Source: Inia geoffrensis
Taxonomy: Eukaryota > Chordata > Mammalia > Artiodactyla > Iniidae
Length of the DNA stretch: 64,000 bases
Direction of reading: 5' to 3'
Assembly (NCBI GenBank): GCA_036417435.1
Contig: CM070901.1
Coordinates: 11,010,001-11,074,000, forward strand
Every line of letters starts with the position of its first letter. Position 1 is the first letter of the stretch. Shown here in pieces: positions 13,690 through 28,835 of this stretch. The notes beneath the pieces were generated by a model. The model saw nothing but the letters and a program-made list of their open reading frames with translations. It was not told where the DNA came from and searched no databases. A program made the translations under genes and the position numbers.

Positions 13690-15339
13690 ATAAAAGATCC
13701 CCACTTTTTAGATCACATTTCAATTTCTTTCTTTGATTTCCCTTCATAGTCAAATTATGAGCCCTAAAAAGAAACCATTCTCACTGTTTACAGAATGATC
13801 TCACCTTAGATTGGATTAGTATTGGTTGATAAGTTTTTGGTTCAACTGCATGTGTGTATGTGTGTGTGCTTGTGAACATGTCATACATTATTCTTTCAGT
13901 CAAAATCAAAAAGTAAGTTTGAAAGCCACAGTTGAAGGTAATCGTCTTCAAGGAATCAAATAACAGATAAACCCTCTTGGATGTGTACATTGTGGTCATT
14001 TTAAATACTACTATTTTTTAGTCATATCTATTACATCTGATTTTACTAATCTTTACTTCTTTTGGTTGTTGATTAGGTTAACTCATGAAAAAAATTCACT
14101 GCTTATTGTTGAACAATATTTTTTGACACATATATTAAACAACCATTAGCAAATGAATAATCAAATGTAAAAGAGTAAAAGCTTATGTATAAACAAACAA
14201 TGAAGAAAATATAAAAACTTTATATTGGGGCTACAAAACAGATACTTCTAGTTGATGTAAGTATTCACATACAGATTCACAAATGGCTGCTAGATTATTC
14301 ATACTATGTTTTTAAATTTTTCTATTAATTTTTTTTCTTTTGAAATTGCAATAAATGTATTTTTGTAAAGCCGGGTTTAGGAGAAAAATGCTTAGACTCT
14401 TTGATAATACAAGATAATTTAAAGTGGCCTGCCCTTCATATTACATTCCAAAGCTTCTTATGAATCCTAGAAATGGAAATGTCTTTTACAAATTTACATG
14501 GGGTTTCCTCAATAAAAGTTGTTTATTAATATCAACTGAATGAAAAAAAATCATGCAAACTTGAATTTTGGAATATTTAGAGCTGAATGCTACCTGGTTA
14601 TTTGTAAACCAATGCAATAATTTAAAGTAGAACTACTTAATGCTATCAAGTTGGAAACTCTAGAAGATCTCTCTGAATTAGTATATAAGCAGGGTTCATA
14701 GTTAAATTACTAAATTTTGCATATTTTAATAGGTCTATCTAAAGATAGTTTTTTAAATGTTTAGGTCAAATTCATAGAGAAGTTCAATATGAAACAGTCA
14801 CGGTTGGACGTGAAGATGCATCTGAAAGGGAAGTGTATATTGAATTGTGACATGGAGCCCTGACTGGTTTCATGATCAAAAGTTGCCGAGAGCAGAGAGA
14901 GAGCTAAGTATTAACTAAAACTGTCAGATGAATATGAGATAAAAAGAAATGAGATTCTATAAAATAACCAAGAGGGCCTGCATTTTTTGACAAGTGTGTC
15001 AATATTATTTCTTCATAAACAAGGCAATCGATTCCTCTAGAAAATTTAATAAACAAATATATCTTGTAAAAATACCTTTTTTCACAGATTTTTCAAAAAA
15101 GTCATACTTAACACTATCTAAATTACAGAAATTCTGAATTAGGAGGAAAGACCTTAATGGCAAAATAACATATAGAAAAGATACAAATTTATATTTATAG
15201 ATATATGTTACATAAATGCAGTCTACGTAAGTATATAGACAGAAGGTATTAAATATATATGATAATTTATAATATCCAACATAAGCATGATAGGTTACTG
15301 ATATAAATTATCTAGCACCCATGGCTAAGTTTTGCTAAG
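13690..15339. other. Intergenic AT-rich DNA, no gene seen
   Basis: I recognise no gene and no clear repeat. A short TG-rich stretch lies at 13852-13868. Confidence 0.5.
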
Positions 15340-15413
15340 AAGAGCAGCAGTGCTTTATATTAATTAAGTAATTCTATCCTCATGACAGTTGTCTGAGGCT
15401 GCTGCTATTATGT
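15340..15413 (-). mobile_element. Left half of a MIR SINE split by a retrovirus
   Basis: The stretch with CTATCCTCATGACAGTTGTCTGAGG up to CTATTATGT resembles the inverted MIR consensus. The element resumes at 17531 with TCCATCTTACAGGTGAGGAAA, the next part of the same consensus. The four bases before the retrovirus (ATGT) and after it (GTGT) look like its target duplication with one change. Confidence 0.65.
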
Positions 15414-15826
15414 TGTCAAATGACAAAACCAAAAAAAAATTTAGTGATAAGTTTGATGCCCTTTATTCAAGGGAAAACAATTCAGGGTTTGGGGCAGTAT
15501 TTTGCCCCACAGCAGTGAAGCGCTCTTCCCAAGGAAATTTGGGCAAGAGTAAGTTTTGTAGAACATTGGAGAAGGCAACACAGAAATAGGACATGAATAG
15601 CTAGGAGGTCTGGAATTTCCTATAAGGCTAGCAGGTCCTCTTTTCTAAGATGAGGTGAGATGGCTAAAGCTGAATTTCAGGATTGTGATTGGTGTGTGTT
15701 AGGGTTCCTTGACAGTGAGGTGTTTCCTATGAGTGCAGGCTGACTTAGGTTTAGATTTGTGATGTGGGCCAGGCCCCTAGGATGGCCTCCATATTTTGGG
15801 TGCTGATATATGAATTAATTTTATCA
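15414..15826 (-). mobile_element. Endogenous retrovirus LTR, minus orientation
   Basis: Reading on the minus strand, this LTR begins TGATAAAATTAATTC and ends TGTCATTTGACA, with an AATAAA poly(A) signal (plus-strand TTTATTC near 15463) about 50 bases before its end. It aligns over its whole length with 17135-17530, which is in the opposite orientation. On its U3 side it is followed (minus-strand upstream) by a polypurine tract and the envelope remnant, so it is the 3' LTR of a minus-strand provirus. Confidence 0.9.
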
Positions 15827-15832
15827 ATAACC

Positions 15833-15840
<8 letters not shown>

Positions 15841-15873
<33 letters not shown>

Positions 15874-16063
15874 GGTACGCGGGCCTCCCACCGCTGTGGC
15901 CTCTTCCGCCGCGGAGCACAGGCTCCGGACGCGCAGGCTCAACAGCCATGGCCCACGGGCCCAGCCGCTCCGCGGCATGTGGGATCCTCCAGACCGGGCA
16001 CGAACCCGTGTCCCCCGCATCGGCAGGCGGACTCCCAACCACTGCGCCACCAGGGAAGCCCCC
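15841..16063 (-). mobile_element. CHR-2-like tRNA-derived SINE (copy 1)
   Basis: Inverted SINE: the T-run at 15841-15871 is the tail, and CCAGGGAAGCCC at 16050-16061 is the head. The pol III B box (GGTTCG type) and A box (TGGCGCAGTGG) of the tRNA-like part are readable on the minus strand. The direct repeat TATCAATA plus a C run flanks it (from 15822 and 16064). The insertion point is the junction between the retroviral polypurine tract and LTR. The body is close to other copies, so it is fairly young. Confidence 0.95.
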
Positions 16064-16065
16064 TA

Positions 16066-17134
16066 TCAATACCCCCTTTTGATCAAACTCTCAGTTGTAC
16101 TAAGAGTTCTGACCAAAGTTTCAGGTATTAGCGTCTCTCTGAACTTCCACTTTTTGCTGATTTTGGAGTGAGTTTGGGTCTCTAACTGAAATTTGTAGGC
16201 TAGGGTGTAAAAGTCCCTTAGTTGGCCATTTTCTTTATCCCATATTTGGTGTTCCAGGTGAGGGGAGATCGTTTGTCTGGTTGCCAGCTGCTCCAGGCAT
16301 GCATTTAAAGCTTCTGAAACAACACAGTGCACCAGGTAGACGATTAGAATGACTGTAAGCAGGATAATACCAAACATTTGGAGGGTGCTCTGAAGCCATG
16401 GTCCCCAGGACTCAAACCAACTTAAGTAGATCAAAGGAACCTTGTTTAAGGAGTCACTTTCTGAAGCCAAGTGATCAGTGATTTTAGGTAGCTGAGTCCC
16501 TACTTCCCCAGAAGTATTAATCCAAGTGCAGCAAGTAATGTTGACCACAACACAGACACATGCTAGCCCAGTGAAAAGATAATTGACAGCCATCTTATTA
16601 TCAAAGAACATCTTTGACCAGAGAGTCTAGGGATTTTTGTTGGAAAGCTTTTGCTTCAGCAGTAGATTCTGCAATATCTTCAAGATTTAAGGAGAGTTTC
16701 CTGATCCTAGCCTCATTTATACTTACTCCTAGCCAAGGAAGTATATCTGCCAGGAGAGGCAAATTTTGAATCATGAATGTCTTCTGGTAATTCCCGCTTC
16801 AGTCTGTACTGTAAGATGAGAAGTGCAGCCCAACGTGAAGCCTTAGGTTGGTTGTGGCTAGTCAGGGACCTAACTGGGTCGCTCAGACGATAGCTTCCCA
16901 CTATTTTTAGTCTATTTAAACATGGAGTTGCCCATGCATGAGGAGGTGCTGTTCCTTCACAGTAAACCTGGGAGGAGCCCAGGCAGAGCTGCCAAATGAA
17001 GTATTCCCATGGTGATGGCTACCTGAATTGTGATCGGCCAAGGCTCCAAATTGGAAAGATTATAGCCCTGGAGACCAATAAGATTTAGGGGTCTGCAGAC
17101 CACACAGAGAGTATCGTTCTGATTTCTCTTTAAC
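16066..17134 (-). pseudogene. env: Endogenous retrovirus envelope remnant (class I type)
   Basis: The minus strand encodes the end of a retroviral envelope. The longest open frame, 181 residues (16611 to 16066), carries the CX6CC motif of gammaretrovirus-like transmembrane subunits (C20, C27, C28), two potential N-glycosylation sites (N24, N32) and a hydrophobic membrane anchor at about residues 79-98. The frame runs on through the polypurine tract and stops at the first bases of the LTR. Upstream on the same strand (to about 16740) is the helical segment that normally precedes CX6CC, but in another frame; further up to 17134 is a decayed surface-subunit piece with stops. There is no gag or pol. 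The gene is broken by at least one frameshift just before the 181-residue frame and by stops, so no functional envelope is predicted. Confidence 0.85.
16073..16083 (-). other. Retroviral polypurine tract
   Basis: On the minus strand AAAAGGGGGT lies directly before the LTR start (TGATAAAA). This is where plus-strand DNA synthesis is primed in retroviruses. The SINE at 15841-16063 now separates it from the LTR body, with part of the boundary duplicated as target site. Confidence 0.75.
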
Positions 17135-17530
17135 TGATAAAGTTAACTTGTATATTGGGACCCACAAAATAGAATCTGCCCCAGTGGTCTGGCCCATGTC
17201 ACAAATCTAAACCTAAGTCAGCCTGCACTTATGGAAAATACCCCAGAAACCTAACACCAATCATGATCTTCCAACTCAGCTTTAGCCAGCTAACCTCCTC
17301 TGAAAAAATAGGACCACCTAGCTTTATAGGAAATTCCCAGCCTCCTAGCCAATCATGCCCTGTTTCTGCGTTGCCTCTTCTAACTTTCTACAAAACTCGT
17401 TCTTGCCCAAACTCCTAGGAAGAGAGCTTCACTACTGTGAGGGAATGTACTCCTGATTCAATGGATTGTTTTCCCTTGAATAAAGGACATCAAACTAGTT
17501 ACTAAATTGTTTTAGTTCTGTCATTTGACA
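17135..17530 (+). mobile_element. Endogenous retrovirus LTR, plus orientation (inverted partner)
   Basis: Begins TGATAAAGTTAACTT, carries AATAAA near 17480 and ends TGTCATTTGACA at 17530. It is the same LTR family as 15414-15826 but in the opposite orientation. It joins host MIR sequence directly at its U5 end. At its U3 end it abuts the minus-strand envelope remnant at 17134/17135, with no polypurine tract. A separate solo-LTR insertion is unlikely, since the bases flanking it (TAAC and GTGT) do not match. Confidence 0.9.
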
Positions 17531-17625
17531 GTGTCCATCTTACAGGTGAGGAAAGCATGTTTTGTTGAGATTATATAGCTACTGAGATGCACAGGAGGGA
17601 TTATAACCCATTCTGATCTGTAACA
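17531..17625 (-). mobile_element. Right half of the split MIR SINE
   Basis: TCCATCTTACAGGTGAGGAAAG followed by a CTACTGAGATG segment and a region resembling the inverted MIR core; it continues the element interrupted at 15413. Confidence 0.7.
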
Positions 17626-28763: not shown

Positions 28764-28835
28764 GCAGAGGGCTGGAGCTGCTCTCAGGGGCAACTATCCG
28801 CAGAGGGCTGGAGCTGCTCTCAGGGGCAACTATCC
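28764..28835. repeat. Exact 36 bp tandem duplication
   Basis: Two identical 36-base units, 28764-28799 and 28800-28835, each starting GCAGAGGGCTGGAGCTGC. The length keeps reading frame, but no gene is evident. Confidence 0.97.

Follow-up and report, generated by a model that had tools for sequence, protein, structure and literature searches.

A provirus normally has two LTRs in the same direction and meets the host with one U3 and one U5 end. The locus analyzed here departs from this on both counts: it is bounded by two full-length copies of one LTR family of about 400 bp, standing in opposite directions, and both of its host junctions are U5 ends. How could such an element have entered a genome? 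We analyzed it within a window of 64,000 nucleotides from Inia geoffrensis, to which all positions refer (Table 1). Our preferred answer, to which we give a probability of about 70%, is a single integration of head-to-head viral DNA that would have been assembled before integration. The two viral DNAs that this answer assumes are called genomes A and B below, and the LTRs assigned to them LTR A and LTR B.

Table 1. Features of the inverted LTR pair and its surroundings in the window
Feature	Position	Strand	Basis
Left part of the host MIR, ending at the insertion	15270..15413	-	MIR alignment; final four bases ATGT, putative target duplication
LTR A, assigned as the 3' LTR of genome A	15414..15826	-	U5 end at host; U3 start TGATAAA at 15826; copies elsewhere in the genome
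SINE (presumably CHR-2-like) in the U3 tip of LTR A	15822..16071	-	own target duplication TATCAATA at 15822-15829 and 16064-16071
Open env piece, transmembrane subunit, 186 aa, gammaretrovirus-like	16066..16626	-	PF00429, Syncytin-2, protein relatives
Polypurine tract AAAAGGGGG of genome A	16072..16080	-	sequence; sense order tract, spacer TAT, U3
3' part of env of genome A	16081..17130	-	collinear with the 3' interior of L025, whose homology reaches 17130, and of L016 (from about 17095)
Joint: one extra base T, then AAC, putative untrimmed U3 tip of genome B	17131..17134	+	comparison with polypurine-tract/U3 spacers
LTR B	17135..17530	+	U3 start TGATAAA; U5 end at host
Host MIR, right part	17531..17620	-	MIR alignment; opening four bases GTGT, putative target duplication

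The inverted pair had been proposed in an earlier note, together with the alignment by which it could be checked. The reverse complement of LTR A aligned locally with LTR B at a score of 362, with 321 of 386 aligned bases identical (83.2%; 83% identity without gaps), 37 gap columns from 12 indel events and a K2P distance of 0.195. The scores of 200 dinucleotide shuffles averaged 21.6 and did not exceed 34, and the comparison in the same direction reached 18. A third copy of the LTR was not found in the window at E 1e-3. The outer ends of LTR A and LTR B both read ...TGTCATTTGACA, and both host junctions are therefore U5 ends, as the same note had stated. A polypurine tract is retained beside LTR A and absent beside LTR B; since it stands before LTR A, LTR A is the 3' LTR of a minus-direction genome. 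This tract, the SINE in the U3 tip of LTR A, the limitation of the interior to env and the AAC before LTR B are additions to what the note had described.

The sequence on both sides of the insertion was identified as MIR by alignment to the MIR consensus. The alignment of the left flank ends at consensus position 112, and that of the right flank resumes at 117. The joined flanks scored 97 against MIR, whereas 1000 joins of pieces drawn at random from the window gave at most 95; trimming them at the joint by up to three bases cost at most one point, and more trimming cost more. The single flanks were weak against MIR, ranking 9 and 10 against 1142 background pieces, with the left flank alone scoring the same as the best of 300 shuffles. 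Joined, the flanks align as a single MIR that continues through the insertion. Because LTR–LTR recombination keeps host junctions, the right U5–host junction must have been made either by integrase or by breakage precisely at the end of the LTR. Together with the continuous MIR, this points to a DNA that had two U5 ends and was integrated once, in a concerted manner.

A 4-bp target duplication had also been proposed earlier. Only three of the four bases agree between ATGT and GTGT, and a match of at least three of four has a chance probability of 0.065; the length of 4 bp is the LTR family's own. Among 31 host-flanked copies in the same genome, 15 matched at three or more of four bases (cross-locus pairs, 10%) and 7 had exact 4-bp duplications, for example AGCT in L010 and CTAC in L012 (0.5% of cross-locus pairs). 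These copies set the 4-bp rule of the family, and ATGT/GTGT, matching at three bases, has the look of a decayed duplication of this kind. The set of 31 drops three copies with an incomplete LTR (L025, L038, L045) and one without an LTR (L048). A GGGG filter set aside L031, L036, L043, and L044, of which only L044 has a real polypurine tract.

Between the host flanks, only env and LTR sequences were recognized, and between the LTRs only the 3' part of env, in antisense. The open env piece matched PF00429 with an E value of 6e-5 and 22.4 bits, just under the curated cut-off of 22.5, and the Syncytin-2 chain among structure sequences with an E value of 2e-4. It had 13 protein relatives, and those with PF00429 included a syncytin-A-like protein of donkey. 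A transmembrane subunit of the TLV_coat family (PF00429 marginally below its cut-off), the 4-bp target duplication, the TG...CA LTR and the polypurine tract before U3 support placing the element among the gammaretrovirus-like (class I) endogenous retroviruses. In the passage cited, the target duplication is 4 bp in MLV and 5 bp in Rev-A (PMC3790719). Three env fragments from public short contigs (P0001, P0002, P0003) were 89–93% identical to the window's env piece and may represent this locus in relatives. Relatives among viral contigs were not found in any of five scans; the sole contig match in other genomes, in a bacterial bin (L001), covered only 23 bases and was judged to be due to chance.

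The part of the interior upstream in env was assigned through copies in the same genome. Piece 16713-17018 had no relatives at E 1e-3 (3 candidates), neither this piece nor 16957-17133 matched a solved structure, and piece 16601-16798 gave weak unrelated matches only; the genome copies identify the region 16713-17133 as internal provirus. The first 160 bases of the interior had their best match in L025, with a score of 80 vs. 40 for the best of 200 shuffles; against L016, the same stretch scored 50, with a shuffle best of 48. At the other end, the SINE was inserted at the boundary between the polypurine tract and the U3 region of LTR A, and its target duplication doubles the U3 tip (16072-16080 and 15822-15839). 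Next to the SINE tail, the tip copy reads ten C in a row; the other has five. Six other matches to this SINE, whose CHR-2-like type fits a cetacean genome, exceeded 85 bits in the window.

The inner joint is informative about how the two halves met. Solo copies whose target duplications are exact place the U3 start at TGATAAA, and the base triplet preceding it at LTR B is AAC, which is not env: the env of L025 matches the window up to 17130 and then mismatches, ungapped, at all four positions of 17131-17134. The last 40 env bases at the joint are covered by this one relative only. The spacer between the polypurine tract and U3 in this LTR family is AAC in L025, AAT in L016 and L044, and TAT in the window's LTR A. 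AAC or AAT was thus the spacer at 3 of 4 junctions in this family, and at 14 of 19 that could be read in sister families, the other five having another triplet; the 19 were read by a pattern that itself requires a T-G/A start, and L072 and L076 look like twins. At host-flanked U3 ends, AAC or AAT was found in 0 of 31 copies, or 0 of 34 once the three copies that the filter had wrongly removed are restored. A Fisher test of 17/23 against 0/34 gave 7e-10 with copies that are not all independent (L016 and L017 are twins, and L011 and L013 are near-identical, with the smallest K2P of 0.03).

A genome-wide search with the junction pattern returned seven matches, namely L025 (AAC) and six AAA junctions of other LTR types, and its reversed control returned two; beyond L025, it contained no further junctions of this LTR family. 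None of 32 env neighbours had this LTR at a score of at least 50 (best 30) within stretches of 251 bases, a length that can miss an LTR, as suggested by L051, a twin of the L016 provirus. A polypurine tract followed by another U3 was readable in 19 of the 32. Other LTR types, mostly with a U3 starting with TGTT, follow the same env 3' part in these neighbours (L049–L080); one env lineage was thus combined with several LTR types.

LTR B therefore seems to bear a tip restricted to unintegrated DNA and to LTRs preceded by a polypurine tract, and it has no such tract. Because AAC/AAT is the spacer of the polypurine tract and is missing at host-flanked U3 ends, the partner in the joint was probably viral DNA that was still unintegrated and had an untrimmed U3 end; the diagnostic tip is only three bases long.

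These data favour the following course of events. Reverse transcription would have produced genome A, truncated in env, whose 3' LTR had a good U5 end. A second reverse transcript, genome B, would then have had its untrimmed U3 end joined to the broken env end of A, either by host end joining or by an end-to-end jump of reverse transcriptase, giving a product with a U5 terminus at either end. Acting in concert on both U5 ends, integrase would have inserted this DNA into the host MIR, with a stagger of 4 bp at the target. Genome B, until then full-length, would later have been reduced to a single LTR by ordinary recombination between its two LTRs, and the SINE would have landed in LTR A afterwards. 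The untrimmed tip at the inner joint indicates that integrase strand transfer did not make this DNA, which would instead have been put together from free reverse transcripts. The sequence itself shows the inverted LTRs, both U5–host junctions, the continuous MIR, the AAC in front of U3 and the antisense env, whereas the two separate DNA molecules, the enzyme that joined them and the subsequent LTR–LTR recombination in genome B are inferred.

We also consider a narrower version, rather unlikely, in which reverse transcriptase ran off the broken env template and jumped, within one particle, to the U3 end of the sister genome. In this version, the extra T would be untemplated, and the locus would be a natural, heritable case of concerted U5/U5 integration. 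If so, joints with untrimmed tips would recur among endogenous retroviruses, and their counts would give a fossil rate of failed reverse transcription.

The earlier note had offered either integration of already rearranged DNA with two U5 ends or later inversion of one LTR. The former is best supported; the latter is disfavoured, since neither inversion of one LTR nor LTR–LTR recombination can create a U5–host junction, and since LTR B has the AAC tip, a kind of triplet met at 0 of 34 host-flanked U3 ends. Self-integration, which was among the suggested causes of rearrangement before insertion, would yield the same final shape if an integrase-trimmed U3 end of B had attacked the env of A and the two-U5 product had then entered the host. 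In the part of the HIV-1 study cited, the U3 end was processed in 21 of 30 autointegrant clones and, in 13 of these, joined to internal viral sequence (PMC2644782). However, a trimmed end starts at TG, and env would be expected up to 17134; the L025 homology stops at 17130, and the AAC before TG is an untrimmed tip, which integrase would have removed. The joint is thus not of the kind in which a trimmed U3 end, with TG first, is attached to internal viral DNA, and we consider this route improbable. Intramolecular self-integration, worked out on paper, gave the right order U5-U3-env-U3-U5 but only one free U5 end, and was rejected. As candidate pre-integration causes, this leaves end joining and jumping by reverse transcriptase.

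Could the locus instead have been reshaped in the chromosome? A provirus of opposite direction might have nested in env, become a solo LTR and lost everything between its U5 end and the host edge; alternatively, a deletion might have fused two neighbouring insertions. Nested insertions and solo LTRs are common, single LTRs occupied 18 of the 20 regions described below, and both LTR edges would end with CA, which we infer would provide a 2-bp microhomology. Nevertheless, such changes demand breakpoints exactly at retroviral ends and a MIR without missing bases. A chromosomal U3 end should also be free of AAC (AAC/AAT in 0 of 34), and by simple logic, LTR–LTR recombination cannot turn a U3–host junction into a U5–host junction. 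A post-integration origin is accordingly of low probability. Far less credible still is an assembly error fusing two LTR copies: the LTR is numerous (187 first-look candidates, of which 40 were scored), but LTR B is only 73–78% identical to each other scored copy, the MIR is continuous across the insertion, and the SINE in LTR A has its own target duplication.

Searches of the genome covered 40 of 187 candidates for the right LTR and 40 of 170 for the left LTR, with a union of 51 scored copies. The search for more inverted arrangements, which the earlier note had called for, gave no other opposite-direction pair closer than 160 kb among the 49 scored copies outside the window; further examples may exist among the remaining candidates. 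A DIRS-like origin was rejected because the relatives have 4-bp duplications and no other inverted pair occurs among the 51 scored copies. Among 20 fetched regions of 9.8 kb, L016 alone had a second LTR, in the same direction. The 18 mentioned above had a single LTR, with the window's env unmatched within about 4.6 kb on each side; one of them, L017, is nevertheless a twin of the 5' LTR of L016. L016 and L017 (G000:C4, about 67.73 and 67.64 Mb) are separated by 87 kb, share identical LTR edges and flanks, and are probably one provirus in a segmental duplication. L011 and L013 (G000:C3 and C5) have near-identical LTRs (0.03) and much flank in common, in contrast to the roughly 24% by which other copies differ; they may be a duplicated segment.

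By global alignment, the K2P distance between LTR A and LTR B was 0.241, and that between the LTRs of the normal L016 provirus was 0.235 (229 bases, partial 3' LTR). The mean over 153 pairs of other copies was 0.236, with 91 of the 153 as small as the LTR A–LTR B distance. In a tree of 20 copies, LTR A and LTR B were sisters with weak support (54); among the scored copies, the best genome match of LTR A was C34:95726012 at 311 bits, with LTR B at 301 bits. Such distances would allow, without proving, an origin of both LTRs from a single infection.

Untrimmed ends can survive in 2-LTR circles. According to the passage cited, these circles arise when linear retroviral DNA undergoes non-homologous end joining, and are called dead-end products (PMC3148978). 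As described there, they resemble the window locus in that viral DNA ends are joined before integration; in contrast, at our locus, the U3 end would have met a broken env end in the opposite direction, and two U5 ends would have been integrated. Autointegration products, namely deletion and inversion circles, were reportedly described by Shoemaker in 1980 and 1981. They share with the window locus an inverted segment and a U3 tip attached inside the viral sequence, but as far as the account cited here goes (PMC2644782), they are circular, have a trimmed U3 end and lack host junctions.

Among endogenous elements, the HERV-K(HML-2) provirus c7_C is likewise described as being flanked by an LTR in opposite orientation (PMC2525661); the passage lists gag-pro-pol and is silent on junctions, target duplication, and cause. 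DIRS-1 retrotransposons share inverted terminal repeats with the window locus (PMC5633606). In the passage cited, however, they belong to a tyrosine recombinase family in which the inversion is normal, whereas the relatives of the window's element are single LTRs or a same-direction pair, with a polypurine tract and 4-bp duplications. Among the papers ranked highest in our literature searches, none on an endogenous provirus with two U5 host junctions was found, which is no proof of absence.

The locus thus seems to be an uncommon relic of a type of accident that is already known. Retroviral DNA that is rearranged and unintegrated counts as a dead end, at least in the passage on circles (PMC3148978). 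One such molecule appears to have been integrated into the germ line via two U5 ends and to have persisted there over tens of millions of years. A simple sequence test, based on the untrimmed U3 tip, separates pre-integration joints from self-integration and from chromosomal inversion; the test is applicable to any inverted LTR pair in sequenced genomes.

Without CpG columns, the K2P distance between the two LTRs was 0.184 with a standard error of 0.025, corresponding to 42, 61, or 92 million years at rates of 2.2, 1.5, or 1.0e-9 substitutions per site and year, respectively. Elsewhere in the window, a perfect tandem duplication with a 36-bp unit, apparently recent, was found at 28764-28835.
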